DNA of 64,000 bases, taken from positions 1 through 64,000 of IMG/VR virus record IMGVR_UViG_3300045996_002876; one strand, 5' to 3'. The notes below the pieces were generated by a model. The model saw nothing but the letters and a program-made list of their open reading frames with translations. It did not search any database and had not been told where the DNA came from. Positions 13,487 through 38,330 of the stretch are shown here, piece after piece. Origin of the DNA: a virus. A program made the translations under genes and the position numbers. The stretch's first letter is position 1. Each line of letters begins with the position of its first letter.

Positions 13487-13923
13487 ACCCGGTCCGCACG
13501 TCCGTCCTCGAGGCCGTCACCGCGGTCCTGACCGAGGACGAGCTGGCCGGCGGGGCCCTCAGCCGGGCCCTGCCCGGCGGGGTCTGGACCGGGGAGATCC
13601 CCGAGGGCCTGGCCGTCCCCCTCCCGGCCGCCGCCGTCGACGCGACCGGGGCCGGCTGGGAGTTCACCACGGAGGGCCCGGACCTGGAGCGGACCCGGCT
13701 GGCCGTGGCCGTGTTCGCCGAGTCGGCCGCCGCCGTCGACGCCCTCCTGGACCGCCTCCAGGCCTTCCTGTTCGCGGCCGAGTTCGCCTTCGCCGGGGCC
13801 GACGAGCTCGTGTACTTCGTCCCCGACGGCCGGGCCACCCGGGCCGAGACCCTCCGGTCCCCGGCCGGGCAGACCGTGTTCGCCGGCGACCTCGCCTTCG
13901 ACTGCGCCCTCTTCCGCCACTAA
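13483..13923 (+). CDS. Tail-completion / tail-terminator candidate
   Basis: The 146-residue product starts at a GTG overlapping the previous stop. It has an amphipathic alpha/beta pattern without enzyme motifs. Its place directly between the joining protein and the tail tube candidate is where a tail terminator is normally encoded. The assignment is positional. Confidence 0.5.
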   Translation: MNPVRTSVLEAVTAVLTEDELAGGALSRALPGGVWTGEIPEGLAVPLPAAAVDATGAGWEFTTEGPDLERTRLAVAVFAESAAAVDALLDRLQAFLFAAEFAFAGADELVYFVPDGRATRAETLRSPAGQTVFAGDLAFDCALFRH

Positions 13924-24504: not shown

Positions 24505-26313
24505 GTGCGATTCCTCCCCGCCCTGACGGCCCTCCTGCTCGCCGCCGGCCACGCCTGGGCGTGGCCGGCGGCGGCCCCCGCCCCCGCCAAGGGGGGCAAG
24601 GCCCCGAAGGTCCGCCTGTTCGTCCCCGAGCCGACCCACCCGGACGCCGACCTGGGGCTCGTCCTGGCGTACCTGGAGGCGGCCTCGCCGGAGGTCCGGC
24701 CGTACCTCGTCTTCTTCGCCTTCCCCGAGGTCCCCGGCGAGGTCCTCGGCCGGGTGGTCACCACCTGGCGGTACGCCGTCAACAAGGTGTCCACCAGCCC
24801 GGGGGTCGTCCGCGGGGCGGAGGTGCCCGGGTCCGGGGGGCGGCTCTGGGCCGTCGACTACCGGGAGCCCCGGTGGAACCTGCCGGCCGTCCTGGCCGTG
24901 GCCGCCCGCGACCGGCGGTACCGGGAGCCCCACGTGTCCCCGGCCCTGGCCCGGCGGCTCCGGGAGCTGACCGGGGGCAAGCAGGACCCCAAGACCTTCC
25001 ACCTGGGGGTCGTCCTCCCGGGGGCCTGGTTCGCCCGCGAGGTCCTCGAGACCGACCGGAGCCCGGCCTACTACGACCTGCTGTACGCCGGCGAGCGGTT
25101 CGGCGGGGCGGCCCCGGGGTGGGCCCCGTACGACACGACCGTGACCGCCGACCGGACCCCGGTCGGGGACCTGTCCGGGGCCTTCAAGGCGGCCCTCACG
25201 AGGGGACAGGCCGTCCGGGTCACCCACCAGACGGACAACCCCAAACTCGTGTACGTGGCGGCCGGCGGGCTCGAGGGGTACTGCCGGGCGGCCGACCTGG
25301 CCCCGGCCCCGGCCGGGCCGGCGGCCGCCCGCGACTTCCCGGCCACGGACAGGGACTTCGACAAGAAGTGGGGGGCGGCCGCCGCCCGCGACTTCCTCAA
25401 GGCCGAGAAGCTCCGGGTGGCCGTCGGGGCGGTGGTGGCCGGGGCCAAGAGCGACCCGGTCCGCGGGTCGTACGTGGCCTACCAGGACCGGGTCCTGTAC
25501 CTGCTCCAGACGCCGCTGGGCGTCTACATGCGGACGTTCGACAGCCTGAAGACCGCGGGCAAGAGGAACTACGCCGACAAGGACCAGGTCCGCCGGGTCC
25601 TCCTCGAGGACCTGGAGTTCGACGCCGGGGAGTTCCTGGCCAGCATGCCCAACGGCCTCCAGGCCGCCCTCCTGACCGACGGGAACGGGAAGCGGGTCGA
25701 GTTCGCCGACTCCCGCGTGGCCCGGAACACCCGCGACCCGGTGGACGTGACGGTCAAGACGAGTATCGCCTGCGACGTCTGCCACGCCCCCCAGTACGGG
25801 GTCCTGGCCCCGACCAACAACAAGGTCCTGGAGGCCATCGGCCGGGGGGTCCGCCTGCTCGACAAGGACCCCGAGGTCCGGGCCGAGCTCGAGGGGTTCT
25901 TCAAGGGGCTGGACGCCAGCCTGCCGGTCTGGCGGGTCCGGTACCAGGTGGCCCTGGTCGGGGTGACCGCCTCCCCGGCCGACCCCAAGGGGTGGACCGG
26001 CCAGCGGCTGGCGGCCGAGCTCCTGGCCTTCCGGGACGGGTACGACGCCCCGGTCGGCCCGGACCAGGCGGCCGCCGAGCTCGGGTACCCCAAGCTCGCC
26101 GTGATCCTGGCGGCCCTGGTCGACGGGTCGGTCGACGCCGGGAACCTGGTGGCCGGCGGGCACGTCCCCCGGACCGTCTGGGACGAGGACCTCCTGCCCC
26201 GGCTGGCCCTCGTCCTGTCGGCCGCCCGCCGGGGCGAGAGCGGGGACGACTGGCTGGACTGCTGGGTCCCGGAAATGACTCTGACCACGCCCCCCGAGGG
26301 ACGCCGCCCATGA
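24505..26313 (+). CDS. Secreted protein with a CxxCH c-type haem motif
   Basis: The 602-residue product starts at GTG and has a signal peptide (about residues 1-20). One CDVCH motif occurs (Cys423, Cys426, His427), the covalent haem c attachment signature. The rest has no family that I recognise; the style (long secreted protein with a single CxxCH) is common in planctomycetes. It overlaps the next gene by ATGA, and that gene also has a CxxCH motif. Periplasmic electron transfer would be the natural role if haem is really attached. A phage gene of this kind is unusual and suggests host-derived cargo. Confidence 0.65.
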   Translation: MRFLPALTALLLAAGHAWAWPAAAPAPAKGGKAPKVRLFVPEPTHPDADLGLVLAYLEAASPEVRPYLVFFAFPEVPGEVLGRVVTTWRYAVNKVSTSPGVVRGAEVPGSGGRLWAVDYREPRWNLPAVLAVAARDRRYREPHVSPALARRLRELTGGKQDPKTFHLGVVLPGAWFAREVLETDRSPAYYDLLYAGERFGGAAPGWAPYDTTVTADRTPVGDLSGAFKAALTRGQAVRVTHQTDNPKLVYVAAGGLEGYCRAADLAPAPAGPAAARDFPATDRDFDKKWGAAAARDFLKAEKLRVAVGAVVAGAKSDPVRGSYVAYQDRVLYLLQTPLGVYMRTFDSLKTAGKRNYADKDQVRRVLLEDLEFDAGEFLASMPNGLQAALLTDGNGKRVEFADSRVARNTRDPVDVTVKTSIACDVCHAPQYGVLAPTNNKVLEAIGRGVRLLDKDPEVRAELEGFFKGLDASLPVWRVRYQVALVGVTASPADPKGWTGQRLAAELLAFRDGYDAPVGPDQAAAELGYPKLAVILAALVDGSVDAGNLVAGGHVPRTVWDEDLLPRLALVLSAARRGESGDDWLDCWVPEMTLTTPPEGRRP

Positions 26314-26969
26314 AGACCCTGTTCACGTATTTCGTCCCGGCCGGCCTCGCCGGCCTCCTGGTCGCCGTCCCGGCGCCCGCCGACGGGTGTCGGGCGGTCC
26401 AGGGCCGCGGCTTCTACCCCGCCCCGGTGGTGACCGCCGCCCACGGGCACGGGTACGCCCACCCGTACGCCGTCCCGGTGGCGGTCATCCCGAGCACGTT
26501 CTACAGCGTGGCCCCCGAGATCGCCCTGGCGGCCGTCGTCCAGGCGGCGGCCGACCAGGCGGCCCGGAAGGCCAAGGGGGACCCGGCGGAGGTGGAGGCG
26601 GCCGTCGAGCGGGCCCTCCTCCGGGTCCTCCAGGCCCAGGGGCCGGGGCCGAAGCCCCCGGCCGTCCCGCCGGCGAAGAACGACGACCCCGGCCTGGGGC
26701 CGCCGCTGGCGGCCGGGCCGGCCAAGGACGCGGCCGCGGCCGTCCAGAAGGTGGTCAACGCCTCGTGCCTGAAGTGCCACGGGAAGGCCGACGACCTCGA
26801 CCTGACCGACGTGACCCGGCTCGACGAGAAGGGCACCGCCCGCATGCTCAAGCGGGTGATGACGACCGGCAAGGGCCGGATGCCCCCGAACGGGGCGAGT
26901 GTCGAGGGGGACGCCCTCGAGGCGTTCCACGCCCTGGCCCTCGAGGCCGAGAAGACCTCCGCCAAGTAA
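26310..26969 (+). CDS. Small secreted monohaem cytochrome c-like protein
   Basis: The 219-residue product has a signal peptide (about residues 1-24), a His/Tyr/Pro-rich segment, a helical Ala-rich region and a C-terminal cytochrome c domain with CLKCHG (Cys153, Cys156, His157) and a GRMPP segment (Met191) that can give the axial ligand. This is the standard layout of a class I cytochrome c domain. It is translationally coupled to the larger CxxCH protein, so both are likely made together and exported. Confidence 0.75.
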   Translation: MKTLFTYFVPAGLAGLLVAVPAPADGCRAVQGRGFYPAPVVTAAHGHGYAHPYAVPVAVIPSTFYSVAPEIALAAVVQAAADQAARKAKGDPAEVEAAVERALLRVLQAQGPGPKPPAVPPAKNDDPGLGPPLAAGPAKDAAAAVQKVVNASCLKCHGKADDLDLTDVTRLDEKGTARMLKRVMTTGKGRMPPNGASVEGDALEAFHALALEAEKTSAK

Positions 26970-33488: not shown

Positions 33489-33776
33489 TCAGGTCCTTTG
33501 GGGGTGGGCGTCCGTGCCGGGATTACTTTGGTCGCGGATGAGTTTCTCGTACGGGCACTGGCCGCCTTCCAGGGGGGCCTCGCACGTCCGGCAGGCCCCG
33601 GCGGCCTCGAGCTCGGCCCGCTTAAGCATGGCCCGGTAGAGGGCCTCCAGGGCCGCCCCGGCCGCCCGGTCGTACCGGGTGATGAGGGCCAGCCCGTCGG
33701 GGGTGTACGCCGCCTCCCGGCCCGGCCGGAGAAGGGCGTCGATGTCGTTGAGGACCGGACCGGCGGCGTACAGCAC
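33489..33776 (-). CDS. Small protein with possible zinc knuckle
   Basis: A 95-residue protein, GTG start, helical in the first 60 residues, with ACRTCEAPLEGGQCPYEK giving three closely spaced Cys. A fourth ligand is not obvious, so metal binding is uncertain. It ends one base before the next start. Confidence 0.5.
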   Translation of the reverse strand: MLYAAGPVLNDIDALLRPGREAAYTPDGLALITRYDRAAGAALEALYRAMLKRAELEAAGACRTCEAPLEGGQCPYEKLIRDQSNPGTDAHPQRT

Positions 33777-33801
33777 GGGCGTCTCCGTAAGGCCGGGGGC
33801 C

Positions 33802-34419
33802 TTAAATTTCTACCACGATCGGCGCGTTCACGGGTCGATACGCCTCGTCCACCAGGGAGGCGTTCACGAACAGGGTCTTCCCGATCCGGTACGTCCCGTA
33901 CCCGGAGTGGATGTGCCCGGCGACTACCAAGCGGGGCTGGACGGCCTCGATCCGTGTCAGCAGGCTCATAGACCCGGTGTGGACCCGCCCGTAGGGGCTG
34001 AAGTCCCCGTGCCCGTACGGCGGGCCGTGCAGGACCAGGATGTCCGTGTCGGCCGGGATGGCGTCCCACCGCTTCTTCAGGTCCGGCTCGTCGGCGTTGA
34101 AGGCCCAGTCGAAAAACCGGGGCTGCCACGGGGACCCGTAAATCTTCAGCCCGCCCCACTCGACCCCAGAGTCCTGGAGGTAGGCCCAGTTCATCCGGGG
34201 GACCATGTGCGGGGCCCGCTCGAAGATGAAGTCGTGGTTCCCGGCCACCCCGACGATTTTCATCCGTCCCGCGGCCCGGTCGACCCACGGGGCGAACGCG
34301 TCCCGGTACCAGAAGGCGTCGGCGTGGTCCCGACAGTAGTCCCCGGCCAGGACCAGCAGGTCGCAGTCCGGGACCTCCGGGAGGTGCCCGTGCAGGTCGC
34401 TGAGACAACAGACTTTCAC
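33802..34419 (-). CDS. Calcineurin-like metallophosphoesterase
   Basis: The 205-residue protein has all the motif blocks: SDLHGH (Asp8, His10), AGDY (Asp27), GNHD (residues 60-63), a later LHGPPYGHGD and GHIHSGYGT. These bind a two-metal centre and hydrolyse phosphoesters. Phage members act on nucleotides, DNA ends or cyclic nucleotides; the substrate here is open. A role against host cyclic-nucleotide defence is possible but unproven. It follows a tRNA-like element in the leftward unit. Confidence 0.88.
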   Translation of the reverse strand: MKVCCLSDLHGHLPEVPDCDLLVLAGDYCRDHADAFWYRDAFAPWVDRAAGRMKIVGVAGNHDFIFERAPHMVPRMNWAYLQDSGVEWGGLKIYGSPWQPRFFDWAFNADEPDLKKRWDAIPADTDILVLHGPPYGHGDFSPYGRVHTGSMSLLTRIEAVQPRLVVAGHIHSGYGTYRIGKTLFVNASLVDEAYRPVNAPIVVEI

Positions 34420-34442
34420 GGGCGACTCCAGGGGCGGGCAGA

Positions 34443-34584
34443 CCGAGCGGGGAGAGTCGAACTCCCAGGTGACCGGGGGCCCTCGCCTTCCGGTCGGGAC
34501 GGTGTCATAGGAGGGTGATCACTCCTCCCCGGCCGTCCAGGGAGCACTCCATTCGTCCTGCGTTTACCGTTTCGCCACGCTCGG
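34443..34584 (-). tRNA. Oversize tRNA-Leu/Ser-like element (142 nt)
   Basis: Read leftward, CCGAGCG at the 5' end pairs perfectly with CGCTCGG at the 3' end (7 bp). The D-arm is TGGCGAAACGGTAAACGC, very like class II tRNAs such as Leu. The T-arm is GGGAG-TTCGACT-CTCCC. A hairpin GACCGG/CCGGTC fits a long variable arm. The anticodon stem can be GGACG/CGTCC, but then the loop has 52 bases instead of 7. No CCA is encoded. Either an insert interrupts the anticodon loop or this is a tRNA mimic. It begins 2 bases after the stop of the preceding gene. Confidence 0.55.
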
Positions 34585-34586
34585 GG

Positions 34587-34805
34587 TCAGGGCTTACCTA
34601 GGAGGCGTTCGATCAGCTCCTCCCGGTTGGAGAACACCAGGTTCCGGTTGACCGTACGGAGGTCCTTCCGGACCCAGCCTTTGACTTCCACGACCGCCCG
34701 GTCGGCGTCGAAGGAGATCAGCCGCCCCTGAACGAGGTCGATCCCGGACAGGGTTACCCAGTCGAACCGAAGGTCCACGACCCAATAGGTTTCGCCGATC
34801 TTCAC
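34587..34805 (-). CDS. Small unknown protein between tRNA-like elements
   Basis: A 72-residue beta-rich protein with WVVDLRFDW and AVVEVKGWVRKDL segments, similar in style to small SH3-like phage proteins. GTG start with GGGGAGG 4 bases upstream. It lies between two tRNA-like elements on the same strand. Function unknown. Confidence 0.55.
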   Translation of the reverse strand: MKIGETYWVVDLRFDWVTLSGIDLVQGRLISFDADRAVVEVKGWVRKDLRTVNRNLVFSNREELIERLLGKP

Positions 34806-34830
34806 GGGCCTCCCCCTCTGGTTCTTGATC

Positions 34831-34956
34831 AGTCCCGGCGGGATTCGAACCCGCGGCGCTTCCCCTTCGTCGGCCCCGCTACGGCCCCCCGGGAAAGCGT
34901 CTCCGTAGCGGTAAGGTTTGGACCCCGGCTTGTGGCCGTTCTCACCCACGGGGACT
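34831..34956 (-). tRNA. Oversize tRNA-like element (126 nt)
   Basis: The T-arm GCGGG-TTCGAAT-CCCGC is perfect and the 3' strand CGGGACT pairs with 5' AGTCCCC at six of seven positions. A D-arm-like GTGG...CCAC follows the 5' strand. The centre holds a 9-bp hairpin (CCGCTACGG with CCGTAGCGG) with an 18-base loop that has no place in a normal cloverleaf. A standard anticodon arm is not found. Less clear than the other two. Confidence 0.45.
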
Positions 34957-35075
34957 GCTGTCTTCCGCCAGGGCCGTCCGGGGCGGCGAAAGCCGCCCCG
35001 GACTCCCCGGCACTCACCACACCACACGACCCCACGCCGTGTACGCTACCACCCGACCGGGCAGGCCTGCGTCCC

Positions 35076-35942
35076 TCACCCGGGGAAGTACCCGCCCGGC
35101 CCGTAACTCCGGACCGGGGCCGGCCGCGGGGGGACGTACCCGGCCCCCGACCCGGTGAACCCGGGGACGTACGCGGGGAAGGCCTGGGGCGGGTAGTACT
35201 TGATCGGCGGGACTTCCGGCGGGGGCGGGAACCGGGGGTCCCCGACCGGGGTCGTTTTCATCTGGCCCTTGGCCGGCGGCGGGGGCGGGAGGGGGGCCTT
35301 CCTGGCCTCCCCCTCGGGGTCCTTGAGGAACCGGGTGACCTCGTCCAGGCGGACGGCCAGGGTGGTCGTCCGGTCCCCGGTGATCCCGCCGTACAGGACG
35401 GCCGCCAGCTCGCCGGCGGCGTTCACCAGGGGGCCGCCCGAGTCCCCGTGCCAGGACCCGATCCGGGCCAGGACGGCCTTGAACCCGTCCCCCCCGGTCT
35501 CGTTCACGGACTCGACCCGGCCCGACCGGGTGACCAGCGGGCCGGCCTCGGTGAACCCGTACTGGGTGAGGACGGCCCCGGCCGCCGGGGCCGTGGCGGC
35601 CACGGGCAGGCTCGGGAGGTCGGCCGCCACCCGCAGGAGGGCCAGGTCGCTCCGCCCGTCGGCGGCCACCAGGGCGGCCGGGTAGACCTTCCCGCCGGCC
35701 GTCAGGACCTCGTACGTCGCGTCGGCCGCCGGGGCCACGTGCTTGTTGGTCAGGACCAGGCTCACGCCGGCCTTGCTGGACACGACCGCCCCGGTCCCCC
35801 ACCCGCACTCCTTGGAGCGGCGGTGGGTGTGCGGGTCCTCGACGAACCGGGACCGGCAGACCTGGACGCAGGCCCCCTCGGGGCCGGCCAGGAGGCCGGC
35901 GGGGAGGGCCAGGAGGAAGAGGCACACGAGGCGGCGAATCAT
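35076..35942 (-). CDS. Secreted trypsin-like serine protease
   Basis: The 288-residue product from the ATG at 35940-35942 has a signal peptide (about residues 1-19) and a chymotrypsin-fold domain with the triad His68 (LTNKHVA), Asp99 (SDLALL) and Ser168 (GDSGGP). The C-terminal 90 residues are a Pro-rich tail. The layout is like short DegP/HtrA-type proteases but without a PDZ domain. An exported protease in a phage accessory block might act on envelope or secreted host proteins. The longer upstream frame was rejected because it lacks a signal peptide at its start. Confidence 0.85.
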   Translation of the reverse strand: MIRRLVCLFLLALPAGLLAGPEGACVQVCRSRFVEDPHTHRRSKECGWGTGAVVSSKAGVSLVLTNKHVAPAADATYEVLTAGGKVYPAALVAADGRSDLALLRVAADLPSLPVAATAPAAGAVLTQYGFTEAGPLVTRSGRVESVNETGGDGFKAVLARIGSWHGDSGGPLVNAAGELAAVLYGGITGDRTTTLAVRLDEVTRFLKDPEGEARKAPLPPPPPAKGQMKTTPVGDPRFPPPPEVPPIKYYPPQAFPAYVPGFTGSGAGYVPPRPAPVRSYGPGGYFPG

Positions 35943-35976
35943 TCGCGTTCCAGAAAGGGCGTGGGCGGGGGCGGGA

Positions 35977-36255
35977 CTAGGACTTCGGGCGGCGGAGCCA
36001 CTCCTCGTACCGGGCACAGGACGCGTCGAGGCGGGCCCGGGCGGCCTCCGCCTCGGCCTTCTTCCGCTCGTCGGCGTACGTCCGGTCCCCGTACGGGATC
36101 GGCTCGTCGCACAGGTTCCCGTCGTACACCAGGTCCTCCTTGGACCCGGTCAGGACGGCGCGGGCGGCGTTGAGGTACGGCTCGAGGACGACGAACAGGA
36201 CCGGGACGAGGACGAAGGCCAGGCAGGCCAGGCCGGACAGGACGTCGGGGTTCAT
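35977..36255 (-). CDS. Small single-pass membrane protein
   Basis: The 92-residue product has one hydrophobic segment (about residues 7-29) and a charged helical C-terminal part (KKAEAEAARARLDASCARYE). Its ATG overlaps the stop of the larger membrane gene upstream, so the two are coupled and may form a complex. Confidence 0.6.
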   Translation of the reverse strand: MNPDVLSGLACLAFVLVPVLFVVLEPYLNAARAVLTGSKEDLVYDGNLCDEPIPYGDRTYADERKKAEAEAARARLDASCARYEEWLRRPKS

Positions 36256-37307
36256 CGGAGAGTCGCCTCCTCGGCGGCGGCCTCGGCGGCGGCCTCCTCC
36301 TCGGACACGAGGGTGATGGCCGGGCAGTTCTCCTCGTAGAACATGGTCGCGAACTCGACCGCCCCGGCCCACCCGCGGGCCACGAACCGGCCGAAGGCGG
36401 GGACGACGTACAGGGGGTAGCCGACGACCTTGACGTGGTCCCAGACCCGCCCCAGGACGTCCCAGGTGGTCCGCCGGGACCGCACGAAGTAGGCCGCCCC
36501 GCCGGCGAGGATGCCCCAGAAGAGCATGCGGGCCAGGAACCAGAAGGCCGCCCCGGTCCCCTCGGCCGAGAACAGCCAGGCGATCCCCTGGCAGATCCAG
36601 TAGAGGGCCCAGGCGAGGAACAGGACGGCCTCGTACAGGAGGTAGGCGGCCGCCACGGCCAGGACGGCGTACAGGGCGTACAGCCCCCACTTGACGAACG
36701 CCCGCGAGAAGTTCGACCAGAACACCAGGCGGGCCCGGAGGGCCGCCCGGCGGGCCTCGGCCCGTGCCTTGGCGGCCTCGTACCGGTCGACCAGGAGGGC
36801 GTGCAGGGCCCGGGCCTCCTCCGGGACCAGGAGGGCGTACGGGAACTCGTGCTTCAGGAAGGTCCAGACGGTGTCGAACTCCTTGTACGACCCGGACGAC
36901 CAGTTCCGGAGGAGTTCGGTCAGGCGGGCCGCGAAGTGGGCCCGCTCCTGGCGGAGGGTCGGGGCGACCTCAGCCGCCGGCTCCCGCTCCGGCCGGCGGG
37001 CCAGGAGCCCGCGGAGGAAGCTCCCGACGGCGGTCAGCCCGTCCCCGACACGGGAAGCCCCCCAGGCGGCCCGGACCCCCCGGAACACGGCCCGCCCGAC
37101 CTTGACGGCCAGCAGGAGCGGGAGGAGGAGGGCGATCAGGTTGGTCAGGTGGAACAGCGGGCAGTAGTGGGTGTACAGGTACTTGGGCAGGCCGGTGTCC
37201 TGGGGCCGGGCCGGGTCGGCGTCGGCCACCCCGAAGGCCCAGTGGAGGAGGCGGTACCGCCAGTGCCCGAAGGACAGGGTCCGGTCGGCCTTGATCGAGT
37301 CGAGCAC
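36252..37307 (-). CDS. Multi-pass membrane protein of unknown function
   Basis: The 351-residue product, GTG start, has hydrophobic segments near residues 55-70, 205-240 and 250-275 and a charged helical region between the first and second. The C-terminus is Glu/Ala-rich. No transporter or channel motif is recognised. It is coupled to the small membrane protein and lies downstream of a tRNA-like element. Confidence 0.6.
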   Translation of the reverse strand: MLDSIKADRTLSFGHWRYRLLHWAFGVADADPARPQDTGLPKYLYTHYCPLFHLTNLIALLLPLLLAVKVGRAVFRGVRAAWGASRVGDGLTAVGSFLRGLLARRPEREPAAEVAPTLRQERAHFAARLTELLRNWSSGSYKEFDTVWTFLKHEFPYALLVPEEARALHALLVDRYEAAKARAEARRAALRARLVFWSNFSRAFVKWGLYALYAVLAVAAAYLLYEAVLFLAWALYWICQGIAWLFSAEGTGAAFWFLARMLFWGILAGGAAYFVRSRRTTWDVLGRVWDHVKVVGYPLYVVPAFGRFVARGWAGAVEFATMFYEENCPAITLVSEEEAAAEAAAEEATLR

Positions 37308-37336
37308 GCGGGACTCCTGGGAACTCGTCTGGAAGA

Positions 37337-37458
37337 AGGCGGGGTGGGGGTCGAACCCACACGGCCCGGGGACGCCCCCGGGAGCTCTCCCCGACGCCGG
37401 CGGGATGGGTACCCTCGCCGCCGGAGCCGGGCCCTCTCGGGCCTTGAGCTACCCGCCC
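37337..37458 (-). tRNA. Oversize tRNA-like element (122 nt)
   Basis: Read leftward, GGGCGGG-TA-GCTCAAGG at the 5' end is highly tRNA-like. GGGCGGG pairs with CCCGCCT (one G-U). The D-stem GCTC/GGGC and T-arm GTGGG-TTCGACC-CCCAC are present, as is a long variable hairpin (CCCGGGG/CCCCGGG). The anticodon stem can be GGCTC/GAGCT, but the loop has about 36 bases with its own CCGGCGG/CCGCCGG hairpin. No CCA is encoded. Confidence 0.55.
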
Positions 37459-37721
37459 GTAAAGCCGGGAGTCGCACGGAGGCCTCCCGGGGGCCCTGCC
37501 AATCCGTCCGCCGGCTTCCGCTCCGACCGAACTACTCCCCGGCGGGGGACCCGTACTCGCTCGACGTTACACCGTCCCCCGAGCGTTCGTGGGGGACTGG
37601 AACACCCGTTACGGCCCGCTGGGATGACGCTCTCGGTCGCCGGGTGACCACCCTTACGGGCGGGCCCTTTGGGAGGAGCTTGACCAGTCCTACCGGATGA
37701 GGGCTATCGGTGTTCTGGGGC
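37459..37721. other. Gene-free stretch beside the GroES gene
   Basis: With the tRNA-like element and the hairpin that follows, this makes a 457-base interval without a protein gene. I see no open frame with a start context, no further T-arm and no promoter of the type found elsewhere. Confidence 0.45.
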
Positions 37722-37754
37722 GGCCGGGGGAGGTCCTTCCGACCTCCCCCGGCC
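37722..37754. terminator. Hairpin downstream of the GroES-like gene
   Basis: A 14-bp stem (37722-37735 with 37741-37754). A T-run lies on the right side (TTTTTC after 37759), so it would work better as a terminator for rightward transcripts, although the adjacent gene is leftward. Confidence 0.55.
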
Positions 37755-37764
37755 CGGCTGTTTT

Positions 37765-38055
37765 TCAGTCCTCGAGGACGCCGAGGACGTCGGCCTCGCG
37801 GAGGATCCGGACCTTCCTCCCGCCGACCTCCTCCTCGTGCCCGGCGTACATGCCGAACACGACCGTCTGGCCGACGGCCACGTCGAGGATGAGGCGGCGG
37901 TTCTGGCCGGGGTCGTAGGCCCCCGGGCCGACGGCCGTCACCACCCCCCGGCCGATCTTCATCCGGGCCGAGTCGGGCAGGAGGATCCCGCCGGGGGTCT
38001 GGGTCTCGGTCACGGGCTCGACCACCAGGTGGTCGGCGAGGGGGCGGATCTTCAT
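37765..38055 (-). CDS. GroES-like co-chaperonin
   Basis: The 96-residue protein matches the GroES fold over its whole length: MKIRPLADHLVVEP at the start, ETQTPGGILLPDSARM as mobile loop with its following strand, GVVTAVGPGAY, VAVGQTVVFGMYAG and a final VRILREADVLGVLED. Phages encode such lids (T4 gp31 and others) to let host GroEL fold large capsid proteins. No GroEL gene is in the window, so it would work with host GroEL. AAGAG precedes the ATG. Confidence 0.92.
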   Translation of the reverse strand: MKIRPLADHLVVEPVTETQTPGGILLPDSARMKIGRGVVTAVGPGAYDPGQNRRLILDVAVGQTVVFGMYAGHEEEVGGRKVRILREADVLGVLED

Positions 38056-38093
38056 GTCTCTTGGTTCTCCTGATTGTTCCTTGCCGACCGTCT

Positions 38094-38330
38094 TCACTTT
38101 GCCGAGAGGGCCCGCCGGCCGTCCAGGTAGTCCTGCCCGTACCAGAGGACGAGCTTGACTTGCCGCTCGGTCATGGGGGCCCTGAGGGCGTACGCCGCCT
38201 GCTTATTCTGGGCGTCGATTTTCGCCCCTTCGGCCTCGTTGTCGGTCGCCTTCTGGCAGAATTCGTCCTCCGAGGCGGCCGACCGACATGCGATACAGAA
38301 CCCGCGGCGGTCGTGCATGTGGGTCGCCAT
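38094..38330 (-). CDS. Small unknown protein
   Basis: A 78-residue protein with MHDRRGFCIACRSAASEDEF near the start; the C-x-x-C plus a later Cys could bind metal but a fourth ligand is not certain. The C-terminal part is helical. It lies just upstream of GroES in the same unit. Confidence 0.55.
   Translation of the reverse strand: MATHMHDRRGFCIACRSAASEDEFCQKATDNEAEGAKIDAQNKQAAYALRAPMTERQVKLVLWYGQDYLDGRRALSAK

Follow-up and report, generated by a model that had tools for sequence, protein, structure and literature searches.

tRNA-like elements between the genes of a temperate tailed phage and their apparent relatives in other tailed viruses

The window analysed here is a 64,000-nucleotide stretch of a 106-kb temperate tailed-phage record with portal, major head protein and integrase genes; the GC content of the phage DNA is about 71%. 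Within a leftward gene block it holds three oversize tRNA-like sequences, A, B and C, all on the minus strand, which raise the question of what RNAs with the upper part of a tRNA and an abnormal length are doing between protein-coding genes. A first-pass annotation of the window had offered three possibilities: tRNAs whose anticodon loop holds a short insert, tRNA mimics, or decoys for tRNA-targeting defence.

Three oversize elements in the gaps of a leftward gene block

Element A (34443..34584, minus strand, 142 nt) has a fully paired acceptor (34578-34584 / 34443-34449; CCGAGCG/CGCTCGG, 7/7), a T-arm at 34450-34466 (GGGAG-TTCGACT-CTCCC), a D-arm at 34560-34575 (GCG-AAACGGTAAA-CGC) and a variable-arm-like hairpin at 34471-34495; its tRNA-body score is 18.5, with no matches in 30 shuffles. 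It begins 2 nt past the stop codon of the preceding gene, and 23 nt separate its end from the GTG at 34419 of a metallophosphoesterase gene (33802..34419, minus strand; phrog_1649, 7.9e-11), which lies directly downstream.

Element B (34831..34956, minus strand, 126 nt) pairs at six of seven acceptor positions (34950-34956 / 34831-34837) with one C-C mismatch, and has a T-arm at 34838-34854 (GCGGG-TTCGAAT-CCCGC) and a D-like hairpin at 34932-34949. Its remaining sequence can form two interleaved pseudoknot stems of 9+9 bp (34903-34911:34876-34884 and 34891-34898:34858-34865), together 18 bp; only 3 of 2000 shuffles of the stretch reached 17 bp. B ends about 25 nt before the GTG at 34804 of a small gene without assigned function that separates it from A (34587..34804, minus strand, in frame with an ORF listed at 34587-35027). 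It is preceded by a strong 12-bp hairpin, GTCCGGGGCGGC-TTTC-GCCGCCCCGGAC (34976..35003, minus strand), after a trypsin-like protease gene (35076-36017) that has a signal-peptide-like start; from its sequence, the hairpin is a candidate for protecting the 3′ end of the preceding message. Elsewhere in the window, 24561-26969 encodes a phage-borne c-type cytochrome-like domain.

Element C (37337..37458, minus strand, 122 nt; tRNA-body score 17.5, minimum free energy -76.9) has an acceptor paired 7/7 including one G-U (37452-37458 / 37337-37343) and a T-arm at 37344-37360 (GTGGG-TTCGACC-CCCAC). In its minimum-energy fold the insert lies in the D-loop (GCTCA[..]GTCGGGGAGAGC), and it is best placed there because GTCGGGGAGAGC looks like the 3′ portion of a D-arm. 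Upstream, in order, are a GroES gene, a 14-bp hairpin (37722..37754, minus strand) and about 260 nt of more structured sequence; C ends 29 nt before the GTG at 37307 of a gene that probably encodes a membrane protein (36252..37307, minus strand), the product of which matched no family in a family search. Directly upstream of C, 37462-37532 on the minus strand is a possible degenerate tRNA of near normal length (GCCGGGG...TCCCGGC, with an Asp-like D-arm), and further structured sequence lies between it and the GroES terminator hairpin.

There are several common features. First, all three have a 12-bp acceptor/T-stem stack (with one mismatch in B), a canonical T-loop and the GG of a D-loop; the coordinates, acceptor pairing, T-arms and D-arm-like sequence given by the first-pass annotation agree with the letters. 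Second, each occupies the gap between two genes. Third, each is followed at a similar distance by a GTG start with a Shine-Dalgarno (SD) sequence, gene starts being judged from SD and ORF. The stretch 33700-38200 showed no sigma-70-like promoter.

The elements exceed chance. The window contains three strict T-arms, compared with 0.26 per dinucleotide shuffle (maximum 2 in 200 shuffles), and two combinations of T-arm, acceptor and D-arm, compared with 0.06 per shuffle; a tRNA-body scanner at a score of at least 17 returns A and C, and nothing in 30 dinucleotide shuffles. Folding energies are only mildly better than those of shuffles (z of -1.3, -0.95 and -1.8 for A, B and C).

Whether they are tRNAs is another matter. 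The 7-bp acceptor (6/7 in B), 5-bp T-arm and TTCRANN loop of a decoding tRNA are present, but a 5-bp anticodon stem with a 7-nt loop and U33 is obtained only by assuming an intron of 38-48 nt. ARAGORN in its default mode finds no tRNA, nor does it find a tmRNA or a tag-peptide gene; Rfam gives no match at gathering score, nothing relevant at relaxed E-values and no intron family. An RF00005 search lists neither A nor B and gives C 17.9 bits, under the 29-bit cut-off. With introns allowed, ARAGORN reads A as Ser(GGA) plus 48 nt and C as Arg(CCG) plus 38 nt; we rejected this anticodon-loop intron reading, as the stems of A are poor and the insertion points inconsistent. The inserts (38-52 nt) have no group I catalytic core, for which some 200 nt or more would be needed. 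An anticodon stem closing on a loop of 36 or 52 bases, as originally described, is a possible parse, but C folds with its insert in the D-loop and B is better accounted for as a pseudoknot. Decoding tRNAs interrupted by an intron in the anticodon loop are thus an improbable account of A, B and C.

Oversize and minimal elements in related and unrelated viruses

Relatives of the phage were reached through portal homologues, giving some thirty viral records that were read whole or nearly so. Contig scans by portal and by integrase found no related prophage, and blastn matched the region to no named phage. GroES and DNA polymerase gave no useful homologues as routes to relatives. The metallophosphoesterase as a query reached distant phages only, whose tRNA arrays are of the ordinary kind; in one phage tRNA array, next to a homologue of this gene, a tRNA-like element with two T-arms is nested (L011:7580-7697).

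The portal relatives contain two kinds of intergenic tRNA-like element, oversize and mini. The oversize forms include one built on Ile(GAT) halves with a 78-nt insert in the T-stem (L038:2087-2238; 45 bits to RF00005), one with a 65-nt insert in the variable loop (L089:4511-4649; 46.9 bits), one of about 190 nt located 40 nt before a csrA-like gene whose product starts MLVLTRKIGDT (L149, T-arm at 13518, minus strand) and one of 130 nt (L155); the first three have near-perfect tRNA tops. The minis are 41-47 nt long and consist of an acceptor, a GG-containing linker of 10-14 nt and a T-arm, with no D or anticodon arm. The phage itself carries one of 42 nt outside the window (record 105007-105048, L010:3207-3248), followed by a hairpin and then an SD-ATG, the start lying 46 nt downstream.

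Both kinds are tied to gene starts. Among 16 minis (14 of them independent), 15 end no more than 120 nt before an SD-start, for a background of 16%, and six of eight long forms in the portal relatives are within 60 nt of one, for a background of 9%. In an initial alignment 9 of 12 pairs covaried, the members having been picked for pairing. Two side observations are a phage tRNA with an amber-reading CTA anticodon (L046:11057-11131) and identical Arg(TCT) tRNA 3′ halves at L095:1269 and L109:19042, which are probably attP sites.

A scan of viral contigs with the pattern ACTGGTN{6,10}GGTTCGATTCC, which ignores the acceptor, matched at least 120 contigs from many unrelated viruses. Among the matches listed, 34 of 64 distinct non-tRNA matches (those without an ARAGORN tRNA call) have an acceptor helix (score of at least 5) next to the linker, compared with a mean of 2.3 and a maximum of 7 when 3′ flanks were permuted (500 permutations); real tRNAs picked up by the pattern have such a helix beside the linker in 2 of 31 cases. 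The T-stem has a sixth pair in 82% of the acceptor-helix matches, again among those listed, and helix lengths peak at 12-13 bp. In a gapless alignment of 14 rows, 11 of 13 pairs vary on both sides (score 0.91, as against no more than 0.26 when slid), and in most rows the outermost pair is not formed, so that 6+6 = 12 bp remain, as in the acceptor plus T stem of a tRNA. The acceptor and T-stem sequences vary freely with compensation. Because tRNA-like T-loops were the entry to the search, they bias the kinds of elements found.

Two consequences follow for the proposals made earlier. The covariation that had been suggested as a check is present in relatives for the acceptor and T helices, supporting tRNA mimics, but does not extend to an anticodon arm. 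Decay of phage tRNA genes into chance leftovers between genes is a very improbable explanation: phages do carry tRNAs, and A resembles Leu/Ser types and C an Arg type, but the acceptors of minis covary in unrelated viruses, spacing before start codons is regular and the top halves are conserved; the acceptor permutation test already weighs heavily against decay.

A class covariance model finds many copies in the mycobacteriophages Predator and Cuke and in Gordonia phage VanLee. A T-arm plus acceptor scan of these phages gave 40 elements, all of them on the coding strand, with a shuffle expectation of about 0.8 per stretch. Compared by hand with the annotation, 36 of the 40 fell in annotated gaps (Predator 8/9, Cuke 12/15, VanLee 16/16) and the other four where an annotated gene begins. 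The usual layout is stop codon, element, short hairpin, SD and start. Cuke also has enlarged versions, with linkers of 64 and 36 nt and an inner hairpin, and some VanLee elements carry a D-arm (GCTC-TGGT-GAGC); these forms bridge the minis and the oversize forms of the window. One IMG/VR contig has about ten near-identical elements in a row, each followed by hairpin, SD and ATG (L280:5147-8474), and the archaeal Halorubrum tailed virus 7 has a perfect mini at a gene junction (L293:999-1041, 52.6 bits). A weak mini lies beside an ArpU-family regulator gene in Streptococcus phage JX01 (L285:860-904, 20.3 bits).

The conserved part of the class is the top half of a tRNA, made up of some 12 bp of stacked helix, a T-loop of the form TTCRANN and a D-loop-like strand with GG, and this covarying top half lies between genes on the coding strand. 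A, B and C share the stack, the T-loop and the GG in a D-like strand, as well as the intergenic position on the coding strand shortly before an SD-start (23, 25 and 29 nt), and from these features appear to be oversize members of an intergenic tRNA-like class of tailed viruses. An initial covariance model of the class (R1) was too narrow. Its successor (R2), which gives the phage's own mini, one of its training members, 43.6 bits, does not recover A, B and C whole and scores only their T-arms owing to the long inserts. As they also have no close homologues, their assignment is by architecture and position.

Possible role in the punctuation of polycistronic transcripts

The findings in the relatives leave little room for intron-bearing tRNAs or for mimics absorbing host anticodon nucleases, which we consider improbable. 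The Ser(GGA) and Arg(CCG) readings of ARAGORN and the near-normal tRNA halves of some relatives are in their favor; however, minis have no anticodon arm and each oversize form disrupts it in its own way, the 38-78 nt of the inserts fall far short of a group I intron, and the elements occur singly before genes and not in tRNA arrays. A short anticodon-loop insert as such does not fit, since the extra sequence is in the D-loop of C, the anticodon region of A, the pseudoknot of B, and the T-stem and variable loop of the L038 and L089 elements, while the commonest members have neither D nor anticodon arm. As for defence decoys, we found no positive evidence, and they leave the placement before start codons unexplained.

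We propose instead that the elements may be punctuation marks of a polycistronic transcript. The GG of the D-loop-like strand could dock against the T-loop and so form a tRNA elbow; RNase P would recognise this elbow and the 12-bp stack and cleave where the acceptor begins, the 3′ end may be cut by RNase Z or a different trailer enzyme, and every downstream gene would receive a separate mRNA whose 5′ end is defined. RNase P is known to bind the elbow and to measure along the acceptor/T stack (PMC4919913), and to cut several non-tRNA RNAs, phage RNAs included (PMC11143913). A 12-bp stack with an elbow and no required bottom half corresponds to the needs of an RNase P substrate, which suggests this reading, and a bottom half free to vary, absent in minis and, in A, B and C, enlarged by additional hairpins or a pseudoknot, would explain the oversize elements. 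The acceptor mismatch of B, the unremarkable folding energies of A-C, the scoring by R2 of T-arms only, the absence of an encoded CCA end from all elements read and the terminator-like hairpins after several minis are points against it. We give such tRNA-mimic punctuation, with RNase P acting together with an enzyme that processes 3′ ends, an even chance of being correct; that cleavage occurs, which enzymes act and what the virus gains are all inferred.

Two other roles have to be weighed. Uncut elements could act in cis as 5′ UTR tRNA mimics that assist or regulate translation of the gene that follows or protect the mRNA 5′ end. The tight coupling to SD and start codon and the hairpin 2-5 nt after many minis (e.g. 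L010, L043, L044 and L296) are consistent with this, but the 12-bp stack and elbow are the measure of RNase P and a plain UTR element needs neither, and the freely varying acceptor and T-stem sequences suggest no sequence-specific regulator; we regard uncut action as unlikely, if worth keeping in mind. The elements could also work at the level of transcription, as attenuator parts or DNA operators. Terminator-like hairpins after the element (in L091, L112, L105 and L146) mean that attenuation also fits, but stems varying freely with compensation are unlike an operator, and at other elements the hairpin is upstream or of a short non-terminator type, which makes a transcriptional role quite improbable. 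Our broadest proposal remains tentative: that many bacterial tailed viruses and at least one archaeal one use minimal tRNA mimics as universal punctuation, with essential tRNA-processing enzymes of the host cutting the transcript into single-gene messages, and that A, B and C represent its largest forms, with pseudoknots.

Comparison with known systems

No description of this class was found in the open-access literature searched, nor was an Rfam family; it is apparently both widespread and undescribed. A structured RNA class thus seems to have gone unannotated in well-studied phages, missed by Rfam and ARAGORN. If RNase P does cut the elements, they would account for the individual expression of small phage genes in arrays and would offer minimal substrates of natural origin for an ancient ribozyme, and cleavage could be tested directly in Mycobacterium smegmatis with Predator and Cuke.

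The t-elements of plant mitochondria and the tRNA punctuation model, in which tRNA-like structures between genes are proposed RNase P / RNase Z signals, are similar in that tRNA-like structures lie between the genes of a polycistronic RNA. The t-elements, however, are organellar; the present elements are viral, and their minis, which have neither D nor anticodon arm, recur in front of many small genes. The tRNA-like domain of tmRNA has an acceptor stem, a T-arm and a D-loop without a D-stem, but no anticodon arm; the present elements share this layout with it and with the permuted two-piece tmRNA, but have no mRNA-like region or tag ORF and occur in many copies between genes. tmRNA is itself an RNase P substrate, and non-tRNA substrates include 4.5S RNA, phage M3 RNA, C4 antisense RNA and operon mRNAs (PMC11143913). 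These too are stem structures, some of them from phages, and for the present elements cleavage is only proposed; they are, however, isolated cases with no common T-arm/GG elbow, unlike this class. Canonical phage tRNA genes share the top half, and in oversize forms the D-arm too, but the present elements lack a usable anticodon arm, are abnormal in length and sit at gene starts. Finally, the SAS and ESAS repeats of cluster K mycobacteriophages are also located just upstream of the starts of small non-structural genes; they are conserved in sequence, with little support for mRNA hairpins (PMC3203893), whereas the elements described here are tRNA-like.
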